A DNA stretch of 64,000 nucleotides from the NCBI GenBank assembly GCA_002163975.1, contig CP019636.1, positions 7,567,501 to 7,631,500 of the forward strand, given 5' to 3'. Positions 38,158 through 40,642 of this stretch are shown here, piece after piece (the first letter of the stretch is position 1; every line of letters begins with the position of its first letter). Below the pieces are notes generated by a model. That model was given only the letters and a program-made list of their open reading frames with translations, was not told the DNA's origin and did not search any database. Made by a program: the position numbers and the translations under genes. Source of the stretch: Nostocales cyanobacterium HT-58-2 (GTDB taxonomy: Bacteria; Cyanobacteriota; Cyanobacteriia; Cyanobacteriales; Nostocaceae).

Positions 38158-38216
38158 AAAAATAAAAGCCGTGAAAACAAATGTTCACGGCTATTGGTGT
38201 GGTGTGAGGAGCTTAA
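38158..38216 (-). ncRNA. yfr1: Yfr1-like small RNA, copy 1
   Basis: The minus strand has the core CTCCTCACACC (38201-38211). This is 10 of 11 bases of the unpaired ACUCCUCACAC motif known to be near-invariant in cyanobacterial Yfr1. A perfect 9-bp terminator stem follows (AGCCGTGAA / TTCACGGCT, 38167-38192) with a U-rich tail. Upstream, TATGAT is a likely -10 box. Yfr1 is a ~55-70-nt sRNA that pairs with target mRNAs through this motif. The transcript start is estimated. A second copy lies 240 bp upstream. Confidence 0.72.
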
Positions 38217-38395
38217 CTATATATCATCATAATGGTAACAAACCAGTAGAAACATGCTGGTAACAATTTTGGTAACAAAACTTTTTTTGACCTTTTTTTT
38301 GACCTATTTACGCACTTTCTTGCCGATAGTGAACTAATGCTTTTGCGTATCATCCTCAAATTGGGTGAGTTTCTATTTAGATTCTATGACAAAGT

Positions 38396-38457
38396 AAAAA
38401 CCGCGGAATCAACTTAGTTTCCACGGCTCTAGATGTGGTGTGAGGAGACTTAACTCT
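38396..38457 (-). ncRNA. yfr1: Yfr1-like small RNA, copy 2
   Basis: Same layout as copy 1: CTCCTCACACC (38434-38444), then the terminator stem AGCCGTGGAAAC / TTCCGCGGTTTTTAC (one bulge) with a U tract. The upstream DNA matches copy 1 at the same spacing: GTTACCAAAACTGTTACCAGC, 30 bp, and TATGAT, which suggests a shared promoter architecture. The loop and spacer have diverged, so the duplication is not recent. Confidence 0.68.
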
Positions 38458-38577
38458 AATTCATCATAAACCCACACGAGTATTAGTAAAGCGCTGGTAA
38501 CAGTTTTGGTAACGACAATATTCAACAAGCAATATAAATAGGTTGCTGAGTGCATCTGGCGACAATCATATAAAAAT

Positions 38578-39564
38578 CTACATCAAAGCACCACCACAGC
38601 TAGAGCCACTCCCTGCTGTACAACCATAACAATATGCTGCTGTTTGTACCTCGCCTATCAAGTCTAAACGCCCAGCTTCCAATAATTTAGCAACTGTAAG
38701 GTTTTCTCCGTTGCGAGTTTTTGCTGGTAAATTCATCATTTGGTTGAAGTCACAATCATACACATTACCCAGATAATCAATCGAAAGCTCATCCAAACAC
38801 ATCAAATGTGTAACCGTACCAGCATTGAAGTGAGATTCTAAAAACTGCAAGTAAGGAGCGTACAATTTCTTTCGTTCTAAATACAGCTTTGTTCTTCCAA
38901 CTGGTATGTTTGTGATAGTAAATAAGTTATTGAAAAGGATATTATAAGTTTCTTTTAAAGATTGTTTGTAATCGCTTTCCAGCTTTGTTTGGTCTGGAGT
39001 CAGGGAAAATCTTTCACTTGTGGGAAGTTGTGGATTGTAGACTAAATCCAAGATTAAATCTGGCTCTTTTCCATAACCAAGCTGATTCAGCCACTGTAGC
39101 GCTTTAATGGAATCATTATATACACCATTACCACGCATTTTATCGACATTGTCTATTAAATAGCAAGGCAGAGAAGCAACAACGCGAATTTTATGTTTAG
39201 CGAAATATTCTGGTAAGTCACCAAATCCATCTTCAAAATAAATAGTCAAATTAGACCGGACAATCACCTGTTTCTTATTTGCTCTTGCTACCTCTATCAA
39301 TGGCTTAAAACCATAATTCATTTCTGGTGCACCACCAGTCAAATCTAGAATCTGAATTTGAGGAAATCTTTGAATGAATTCAATTAATTGTTGGCAAATT
39401 TCAGGAGAAAGTTCTTCTGTGCGTTTTGGTCCTGCTTCTACATGACAGTGGTTACAGGCGAGGTTGCAGCGCTTACCCAAATTAATTTGTAGAACAGTAA
39501 TTTCTTTTTTTGTCAAAGGAGAGTTGAGTTTTTGTTTAAAAGGTGTTACTGCTGTTGGAATCAT
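38578..39564 (-). CDS. arsS: Arsenosugar biosynthesis radical SAM protein
   Basis: 328 residues. Radical SAM cluster cysteines Cys33, Cys37 and Cys40 are in GKRCNLACNHCHVEAGP. The C-terminal half is the DUF3641 region with further cysteines (LCDELS-like MCLDELSIDYLGNVYDCDF and AAYCYGCTAGSGSSCGG), probably a second Fe-S site. ArsS is proposed to attach the 5'-deoxyadenosyl group to dimethylarsenite en route to arsenosugars. arsM lies 47 bp upstream on the same strand, the standard arsM-arsS order. Confidence 0.94.
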   Translation of the reverse strand: MIPTAVTPFKQKLNSPLTKKEITVLQINLGKRCNLACNHCHVEAGPKRTEELSPEICQQLIEFIQRFPQIQILDLTGGAPEMNYGFKPLIEVARANKKQVIVRSNLTIYFEDGFGDLPEYFAKHKIRVVASLPCYLIDNVDKMRGNGVYNDSIKALQWLNQLGYGKEPDLILDLVYNPQLPTSERFSLTPDQTKLESDYKQSLKETYNILFNNLFTITNIPVGRTKLYLERKKLYAPYLQFLESHFNAGTVTHLMCLDELSIDYLGNVYDCDFNQMMNLPAKTRNGENLTVAKLLEAGRLDLIGEVQTAAYCYGCTAGSGSSCGGALM

Positions 39565-39579
39565 AATTTATCCCCTGTA

Positions 39580-39606
39580 TAGAGACGTTGCAACGCAACG
39601 TCTCTA
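39580..39606. repeat. Palindrome between arsM and arsS
   Basis: TAGAGACGTTGC and GCAACGTCTCTA arms meet around a single base pair, making a 27-bp perfect hairpin. This is the widely dispersed cyanobacterial GAGACGTTGC palindrome. Sitting inside an operon, it may partly attenuate arsS. Confidence 0.6.
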
Positions 39607-39611
39607 CAATG

Positions 39612-40580
39612 TTAACAACAACCACCGCCGTTATAATGCCAGGTTGAATCAGTAATAGTTATTTTATCTGGCATTAACGCGCCAAGTTTAGCTGCCGTTT
39701 TGTCACACACTGATGCTGGAATTCCACGCTGAAGAATATGACCTGCATTATCATCAAAAAATGGCTCAGAGCCAGCGTAGATAGCTGTTTTTCCCGTAAA
39801 TACACAAGCACCATCTTCAGGAATGATAACTTTGAAAGCCACAGAATCCAGACTTTCTAAAAGTAAATTCTCTTCTAAGTTGTAAGTCTGGGAATCTAGT
39901 AAACGGTAAGGACGGCGATCGCGAATTTCTACTTGCCCAAAACCTGCACCTATAATACGTTGAATGTACTCTTCATAGGTCAGTGCACCTGACAAACACA
40001 TTGCTCGTAACTGCTCATCTTTTTGCAGATGTGGTGGAATGGGACGAGTCGCAATCGGATCACTCATCTGTAATCTTCCGCCTGGTTTTAACACTCGATA
40101 AGCTTCTTGCAAAGCACGGCTTAAATCCTCTGGTTCAAAGATATTGAAAAGGCAATTTTGCGCCACAATATCAACAGAATCATCAGCAACTGGTAAGTTA
40201 AAGGCATCGCCTTCGTGGATTTCTACAAAACTGGTGTCAAACCAAGGATTTTCTTGAGCAGCAATTTCCAGGTTATCTGCTGCAGCTTGACGCATTTGAG
40301 CCACTGGATCAACAGCAATAACAGCACCAGGGCGGCGCGAAAAGTAGGCAAATTGCAAAGCTTCTAAACCACCGCCAACTCCAACGTAGAGCACAGTCGG
40401 TTGGTTTCCAAGTTCGTTGGGATGAACAGTTGTACCGCAACCATAGTTCATTTCCTGCATTTGGGAAGGAATTTTCAACCCTGGGAGTTGCAGGGGTGTG
40501 CTTTGCACACAACAAAGTCCCACTTGCGGTGTTTGGGCGACTTCACTGTAAAACTGCGCCGCTGTTTCAAGATAACTCAT
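39612..40580 (-). CDS. arsM: Arsenite S-adenosylmethionine methyltransferase (arsenosugar type)
   Basis: Start at ATG 40580, preceded by GGAG; 322 residues. SAM-binding VLYVGVGGGLEALQFAYFS, acidic AVDPVAQM and motif GDAFNLPVADDSVDIVAQNC are clear. Candidate arsenic-binding cysteines are in GLCCVQ (N-terminal), EMNYGCGTT, QNCLF and the terminal GGGCC. The C-terminal half (GACVFTGKTAIYAGSEPFFD, GIPASVCDKTAAKL) is the extension typical of the arsM genes paired with arsS. It methylates As(III) to dimethylarsenite. No arsR operator is obvious. Confidence 0.93.
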   Translation of the reverse strand: MSYLETAAQFYSEVAQTPQVGLCCVQSTPLQLPGLKIPSQMQEMNYGCGTTVHPNELGNQPTVLYVGVGGGLEALQFAYFSRRPGAVIAVDPVAQMRQAAADNLEIAAQENPWFDTSFVEIHEGDAFNLPVADDSVDIVAQNCLFNIFEPEDLSRALQEAYRVLKPGGRLQMSDPIATRPIPPHLQKDEQLRAMCLSGALTYEEYIQRIIGAGFGQVEIRDRRPYRLLDSQTYNLEENLLLESLDSVAFKVIIPEDGACVFTGKTAIYAGSEPFFDDNAGHILQRGIPASVCDKTAAKLGALMPDKITITDSTWHYNGGGCC

Positions 40581-40642
40581 TGTACTGCTCCACAAAACCT
40601 ATCCACAATTGTCTATGACAACCGCTTGATTTGTTTCCCGCT

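Follow-up and report, generated by a model that had tools for sequence, protein, structure and literature searches.

Downstream of arsS in the genome of Nostocales cyanobacterium HT-58-2, two short units carry a motif resembling that of the cyanobacterial small RNA (sRNA) Yfr1. This raises the question of whether they are genes, whether they belong to Yfr1, and what they might add to a network that already has a canonical Yfr1. The original prediction described them as two tandem Yfr1-like sRNA genes with matching promoters. In our analysis of the window, by which we mean the whole stretch of 64,000 nucleotides studied here, the tandem sRNA-type genes and their matching promoters held up, but the assignment to Yfr1 did not, as neither copy is matched by the Rfam model RF01116. 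Copies A and B very likely exist as selected RNA genes; the pair is conserved and real, and it is apparently undescribed. We found no description of it in the titles and abstract openings of the papers listed on Yfr1 and Yfr1-like cyanobacterial RNAs, a survey that reached few subscription papers.

Anatomy of the two units

Both units are encoded on the minus strand and follow a common plan across positions 38158-38520: a GTTACC repeat, a TATGAT box, the motif CTCCTCACACC (hereafter the seed), a hairpin, and a T-rich tail. Copy A, the unit farther from arsS, extends over 38159-38276, and copy B, the nearer one, over 38390-38513. In each, the direct repeat GTTACCAAAA(T/C)TGTTACC is followed after 27 bp by TATGAT, close to the spacing of about 30 bp given originally. 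A further 14 or 15 bp, including AGTTAAG or AGTTAAGT, lead to CTCCTCACACC, and a short linker precedes the hairpin. The original reading of motif, terminator hairpin, TATGAT, and upstream repeat was correct in letters and position for both copies.

In copy A, the upstream direct repeat GTTACCAAAATTGTTACC occupies 38259-38276 and has a period of 12, and it is a candidate regulator site. The -10 box TATGAT lies at 38226-38231, the leader AGTTAAG at 38218-38212, and the seed at 38201-38211. The intrinsic terminator hairpin at 38167-38192 is followed by TTTATTTTTA, with the T-rich tail running to ~38159. The predicted sRNA (38160-38218, ~55 to 60 nt) would consist of an AGUUAAG-CUCCUCACACCACAC 5' leader and the terminator hairpin, and would begin AGTTAAGCTCCTCACAC. 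In copy B, the corresponding elements are the direct repeat GTTACCAAAACTGTTACC at 38496-38513; TATGAT at 38463-38468; the leader AGTTAAGT at 38455-38448; the seed at 38437-38447; and a hairpin at 38397-38430 with a T-rich tail to ~38390. Its predicted sRNA spans 38390-38455 (~60 to 66 nt). The position of the -10 box leads us to infer starts at AGTTAAG, near 38218 for A and 38455 for B, and hence putative lengths of ~55 to 66 nt. With such a start, the repeat of copy A would fall at about -58 to -41, a position like that of an activator site. Its 12-bp period is one that we take to be unlike the periods of HLR1 and the Pho box. The base 5' of CTCC is G in copy A and T in copy B, so the departure from consensus at the first base, pointed out originally, is present in both. 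A third GTTACC sits just 5' of the copy A -10 box (38234-38239, minus strand) and is shared with several close relatives (loci L014, L015, L016, L018, and L019).

When folded from the window, each copy shows a single hairpin, the terminator, with the seed in an open 5' leader. The folding z-score was -4.8 for copy A, with 0 of 200 shuffles equally good, and -2.4 for copy B, with 4 of 200. The seed of copy A is predicted to be unpaired with a mean probability of 0.98. With a 5' end two bases longer, three seed bases of copy B are drawn into a weak 3-bp 5' stem; the unpaired probability of the first three seed bases is then 0.25 to 0.29, and the whole-seed mean is 0.74. A simple terminator scan of the window listed the copy A hairpin and lacked the copy B hairpin, the loop of which is probably too long for the rule. 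The promoter scan performed at chance level, with one promoter-like site (copy B, TTTACT-16-TATGAT) against 1.6 expected. Both scans are weak points in the case for A and B, whose real support is comparative.

Conservation in the family and its sister family

A blastn search with the 451-bp region returned matches in 157 of 192 genomes of the family, representing 51 of 56 genera. From these we assembled a genus set of one blast-picked stretch per genus, selected for its similarity to the window; the set covers 45 of the 51 matched genera, and six matched genera (g8, g21, g35, g42, g44, and g46) lie outside it. By the hairpin rule, with the seed detected at up to two mismatches, A or B was present in all 45 representatives (42 of 45 under an earlier, strict T-run rule). 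Copy A was found in 40, copy B in 27, and both in 22, the count for B being a lower bound because some stretches are short. The core CTCCTCACAC was exact in 34 of the 40 representatives with A and in 25 of the 27 with B. The base before the seed also has a copy-specific identity: G in 33 and A in 7 of 40 for copy A, but T in 23 of 27 for copy B. In 42 loci, copy B precedes copy A on the same strand, at a distance of 135 to 666 bp. A and/or B occur in records of at least Scytonema, Brasilonema, Tolypothrix, Nostoc, Calothrix, Fischerella, Chlorogloeopsis, Mastigocoleus, Westiellopsis, Anabaena, Dolichospermum, and Nodularia. The pattern scan yielded at least 113 stretches, among them some chance matches in other phyla, mostly terminator-less.

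The hairpins show compensatory change. In 59 A sequences, double changes were seen at 7 of 7 pairs, and 99% of alignment cells were paired. Double-change cells numbered 40, against 9.8 in shuffles and 1 to 9 in slid controls, in which paired cells fell to 33 to 47%. Among 54 B sequences, double changes were seen at 4 of 9 consensus pairs. Because the A and B alignments were picked largely by a pattern that contains the seed, they are evidence for the hairpin and not for the seed. Seed invariance in alignments A1 and A2 was therefore rejected as a test of the seed, and the blast-picked genus set was used instead. A row from an odd uncultured cyanobacterium (L155), present in A1, was dropped before alignment A3 and the model.

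The promoters are conserved as well. Among 80 pattern-selected A promoters, the GTTAC repeat (up to four mismatches) was present in 78, at 64 to 66 nt in 74, and TATGAT or TATCAT stood at the same distance from the seed in 70. Among 58 B promoters, the repeat was recognizable in 27. The corresponding figures for the genus set were 38 of 40 for A and 18 of 27 for B. In the 7.9-Mb genome, GTTACCAAAAYTGTTACC without mismatches occurs only at the promoters of A and B; at two mismatches there are 2 further sites, against 4 for the reversed-pattern control. The conservation of seed, preceding base, hairpin, and promoter across genera supports the earlier claim that both copies are under selection.

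To look beyond the family, we used R1, a covariance model built from A and B together, which scores the window copies at 72.5 bits (A) and 66.4 bits (B). At E ≤ 0.001 it matched 51 of 388 genomes of the class. Among the matches listed, those of at least 45 bits came from the window's family and from one genome of another family of the same order; among the family genomes listed, 19 were matched and 5 were without a match. Hits also fell in genomes of three of the six matched genera outside the genus set (G020, G034, and G041). In the sister family, 15 of 20 genomes were matched at E ≤ 0.001, nine of them at 43 bits or more. Four of these nine best (G355, G556, G557, and G558) carry CTCCTCACAC exactly. 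The other five have a seed with two changes, CTCCTCATGC preceded by A in G563 and CTCCTTAGAC in G567-G570, and in all five loci (L282-L286) the repeat (GTTACCAAAA-TGTTAC), the leader (AGTTAA), and the hairpin are intact. The seed is thus not the sole conserved part. Going by the sister-family matches, the arrangement is probably older than the heterocystous family. In part of the sister family, the seed has moved behind a retained switch, possibly a case of seed re-tuning with the promoter unchanged. A further sister-family locus (L276, in G355) likewise keeps the GTTAC repeat and the AGTTAA leader with a changed seed; the changed seeds across L282-L286 and L276 are CTCCTTAGAC, ACTCCTCATGCC, and ATTCCTCATGC. 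R1 hits outside these two families scored at most 35.6 bits, with the motif at the match in one of eight sequences read, and were rejected as confirmed relatives. The one with the motif (L266, in G381, of a distant genus) has CTCCTCACACT followed by a long hairpin, and weak R1 hits occur in eight genomes of that genus.

Relation to Yfr1 and to other seed-bearing RNAs

The canonical Yfr1 of this genome lies at C1:6739610-6739673 (61 bits) and is the sole gene that RF01116 finds. It is flanked upstream by a Pfam IMPDH domain and downstream by a thioredoxin domain, the classical guaB/trxA position; yfr1 follows guaB in 25 and precedes trxA in 27 of 31 genomes (Voss 2007, PMC2190773). Across the family, Yfr1 was found in 189 of 192 genomes, with one match in 188 and two in one, under stricter filters that may lose weak matches. 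The description of Yfr1 as a single-copy gene thus holds for the canonical gene. The covariance search for Yfr1 that had been proposed as a check left copies A and B unmatched both at the gathering threshold (38 bits) and at E up to 10. A canonical Yfr1 elsewhere with no score here is one of two outcomes that the original prediction had named as counting against it. It refutes the assignment to Yfr1 and leaves the genes themselves standing.

Other features point the same way. The Yfr1 undecanucleotide ACUCCUCACAC is matched at 10 of 11 bases, as GCUCCUCACAC in A and UCUCCUCACAC in B. Yfr1 has two stem-loops flanking an unpaired section of 16 to 20 nt, but consensus folds of the 59 A and 54 B sequences gave the 3' hairpin only, with no 5' stem-loop. 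Instead of lying between guaB and trxA, A and B lie between arsS and a methyltransferase gene, in tandem and with a GTTAC-repeat promoter, and they lack the A before CTCC. What they share with Yfr1 is small size and the 11-nt seed (bar its first base), unpaired before a terminator hairpin, and their target class is likely the same. Membership in Yfr1 was rejected on the missing model match and the single stem; judged from sequence, A and B are a separate family that uses the Yfr1 seed, outside Yfr1 as defined. Rfam matches to rli41, SprX, and ceN22 were far below gathering and were rejected as chance.

Exact CTCCTCACACC occurs at 7 sites in the genome, against 1 for the reversed pattern. Five of the seven pass a loose hairpin-plus-T rule: A, B, canonical Yfr1, C1:5192586, and L002. 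The last lies antisense to the ribosome-binding site of a porin and was rejected as an sRNA; discounting it leaves four sRNA-like seed genes: A, B, canonical Yfr1, and one that we call class D (G000:C1:5192583-5192600, minus strand; loci L004/L324). Class D has a 5' stem-loop (GCAAAC-loop-GTTTGC) leading into TCCTCACACCACAC and then a terminator, with no Rfam Yfr1 match. It shares seed, terminator, and genome with A and B, but its 5' stem-loop brings its shape closer to Yfr1 than theirs. Its 18-nt pattern TTTGCTCCTCACACCACA is present in 38 of 192 family genomes and 17 of 56 genera, with none for the reversed control.

Several Yfr1-motif RNAs in one genome are already known, as the precedent of Yfr10, Yfr12, and Yfr18 in Prochlorococcus MED4 shows (PMC2518516); there too, the extra Yfr1-motif RNAs coexist with Yfr1. 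Yfr10 accumulates in the dark, its targets are in part its own, and Yfr2 binds it (PMC6778093); its level responds to light, unlike that of the constitutive Yfr1 (PMC6778093, PMC2518516). Like Yfr10, A and B have the Yfr1 motif, first base aside, within otherwise different sequence, structure, and synteny. However, the motif of Yfr10 lies in a loop atop a stem, an arrangement that A and B do not have, as their seed is unpaired near the 5' end. The genes of Yfr10, Yfr12, and Yfr18 stand beside Yfr2-family genes, whereas A and B often stand by arsS, across most examined genera of one family. The variant described here is marked by a seed near the 5' end without an upstream hairpin, the tandem pair, the shared regulatory repeat, and family-wide conservation.

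Copy A may also have been detected before. The sRNA 4547237r of Nostoc PCC 7120 is 51 nt long and Northern-verified, has reported homologues only in heterocystous strains, and accumulates late in nitrogen starvation and when cultures are dense; NsiR8 (171 nt) sits 319 nt upstream of it (PMC4734099). It is possible that 4547237r is copy A, and the spacing of 319 nt fits the B-to-A distances in relatives. On the other hand, a 171-nt NsiR8 is unlike copy B, and the available part of the source paper draws no link to Yfr1. In the nearest genus, 10 of 13 genomes were matched, none at position 4547237, and among the Yfr1 matches listed for the family none lay near C1:56433. An equation of 4547237r and NsiR8 with A and B is too weak to adopt, given the length of NsiR8 and the lack, by eye, of an NsiR8-like unit upstream of A where A stands between nadC and a zinc-dehydrogenase gene.

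Proposed function, candidate targets, and alternatives

Each copy appears to have its own promoter, a conserved seed, and a Rho-independent terminator, as expected of a bacterial sRNA gene. We propose that each copy is an autonomous gene for a trans-acting sRNA. Its product would be a short RNA with an open 5' end that carries the Yfr1 seed CUCCUCACACCACA and a 3' end formed by an intrinsic terminator. The seed would pair with GUGUGAGGAG-type ribosome-binding sites and block translation as Yfr1 does. Unlike the constitutive Yfr1, the copies would have promoters of their own, with a conserved -10 box and GTTAC-N7-GTTAC at or just upstream of the -35 place. With such separate promoters, seed RNA would be added only under some sensed condition, through a putative regulator, and would raise total Yfr1-type repression and titrate the anti-Yfr1 RNA Yfr2. 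We place the probability of this full model, in which promoter-regulated trans-acting sRNAs mask Yfr1-type ribosome-binding sites and titrate Yfr2, at roughly 0.7.

Among targets of Nostoc Yfr1, CopraRNA predicted porins, Omp85, murC, mraY, and others; E. coli reporters showed repression for 10 of the 11 targets examined, for the most part through the ribosome-binding region, and two Prochlorococcus porins had been shown earlier to be Yfr1 targets (PMC6974561). In the present genome, the anti-seed sequence GTGTGAGGAG with ATG 3 to 12 nt farther on occurs at 4 sites, against 0 in the reversed control. These precede an OprB porin with an SLH domain, a 163-aa protein that begins with a signal-peptide-like stretch and is unmatched in Pfam, and a 91-aa open reading frame (ORF), and the fourth is the antisense strand of Yfr1 itself. 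An anti-seed site was present in 59 of 60 family genomes, with many of the sites being antisense strands of sRNA genes, and in two of the 60, repeats raise the reversed control above the anti-seed count. Of 29 first-listed sites in other genomes, 26 were read: a protein of this porin type follows 6 of them (confirmed with Pfam for 2), and a relative of the 163-aa protein follows 3. We regard the OprB/SLH porin as the clearest candidate target of A and B.

Duplex energies were less favorable to this proposal. At the porin site, seed-only energies were -22.9 (A), -24.3 (B), and -24.7 kcal/mol (Yfr1), values that carry no shuffle control. With full-length RNAs, scored by a method that ignores internal structure, the number of 200 shuffles as good was 43 for A, 16 for B, and 0 for Yfr1 at the porin site; 29, 15, and 61 at the 91-aa ORF; and 7, 9, and 0 at the 163-aa protein. 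The full-length energies are not clearly better than those of shuffled sRNAs, which is a result against direct action. The target prediction suggested originally thus gave exact anti-seed sites, including that of the OprB porin, but weak full-length energies for A and B. Because these targets are predicted from a seed that Yfr1 also has, A and B might contribute nothing distinct.

The neighborhood of the pair is often that of arsS, an arsenosugar radical SAM gene (38578-39564, minus strand; TIGR04167, 417 bits) that lies just upstream of copy B and outside the sRNA unit. Where at least 1,400 nt of upstream sequence was available, 39 of 43 loci have the ArsS C-terminus no more than 1.4 kb upstream of B, and 45 of 68 have it that close upstream of A; in the remaining 23 it was not found within that distance of A. 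In one of the 23 (L163), an inserted pair of transposase-like ORFs splits arsS from B and A. In four stretches, copy A stands between nadC (quinolinate phosphoribosyltransferase) and a zinc-dehydrogenase gene (Pfam check on one), with leader, seed, hairpin, and promoter all intact. That A stays intact away from arsS argues that it is an autonomous unit and not merely an arsS terminator. Nothing found ties A or B to arsenic. In the window, arsM and arsS form a set of arsenosugar genes (38578-40595, minus strand; NCBIfam NF038099 and TIGR04167). Of six related stretches, four hold both genes, and in these four a phosphate-permease-like gene (Pfam PHO4 for one) lies between them.

A and B might alternatively act mainly as decoys or sponges, with the seed titrating Yfr2 or a seed-binding protein and so freeing Yfr1. 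The identity of their seed with that of Yfr1 speaks for this, as do the weak full-length pairing with candidate mRNAs, the binding of Yfr1 by Nostoc Yfr2 (PMC6974561), and the case of Prochlorococcus, where Yfr2 binds Yfr1 and Yfr10 and Yfr1-motif genes stand beside Yfr2-family genes (PMC6778093, PMC2518516). Yet mRNAs hold perfect anti-seed ribosome-binding sites, and a search with RF01702 located no Yfr2 in the genome, the controls being equally silent; we consider a sponge role improbable as the main function. A simpler proposal, that A and B are extra copies of Yfr1 providing redundant dosage, can point to a common seed that extends to CTCCTCACACCACA. It has to face the absence of an Rfam match and of a 5' stem-loop, the other promoter and neighbors, the paralogue-specific base kept before the seed across genera, and a canonical Yfr1 that is matched once in 188 of 192 genomes and twice in one. 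We hold it to be very unlikely.

No more credible is the idea that B and A are arsS terminators or 3' untranslated region relics without sRNA function. B does follow arsS in nearly all loci with enough flank (39 of 43), but a terminator requires neither promoter nor seed, and here conservation extends beyond the hairpin to the seed, leader, -10 box, and GTTAC repeat; for A, there is also the lack of an ArsS end within 1.4 kb in 23 of 68 loci. Nor do we expect the direct repeat and TATGAT to be a DNA-level switch with the RNA as a by-product, a very remote prospect in our estimation. In its favor, the repeat shows strong conservation, stands at no other place in the genome than the two promoters, and is kept in the five sister-family genomes with two seed changes; in the window's own family, however, conservation of the seed roughly equals that of the promoter, and the hairpin shows covariation.

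A broader picture can be drawn tentatively, and we think it possible but doubtful as a whole. Heterocyst-formers and the sister family would have inherited a tandem pair with 5' seeds as a regulated arm of the Yfr1 network. One regulator, acting via GTTAC-N7-GTTAC, would raise or re-aim Yfr1-type envelope control in late nitrogen starvation or stationary phase, and some sister lineages would re-tune the seed. Copy A would then be 4547237r, and the 5' hairpin demanded by the Yfr1 model would have kept it hidden. Yfr1 has been described as near-universal in cyanobacteria and constitutive, and its modulation has been posed as a question (Brenes-Alvarez et al. 2020, PMC6974561). If true, this picture would explain how the regulon of a constitutive sRNA is modulated. 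A conserved, separately promoted pair with the same seed offers a concrete answer that can be tested in genetically tractable Nostoc. Practical consequences would follow as well: an antisense knock-down against the Yfr1 seed could strike several RNAs and not one, and the Rfam Yfr1 model would miss the class to which A and B belong.

Two loci hold a further kind of unit, on the strand opposite to A and B (L083 at 4404, minus strand, and L120 at 3206, plus strand), in which another leader, GGTTGAAAGAAG, precedes (T)CTCCTCACAC. These units share stretches with A or B, and L083 has a possible terminator while L120 has none. The GGTTGAAAGAAG-led units are possibly another seed-bearing RNA.
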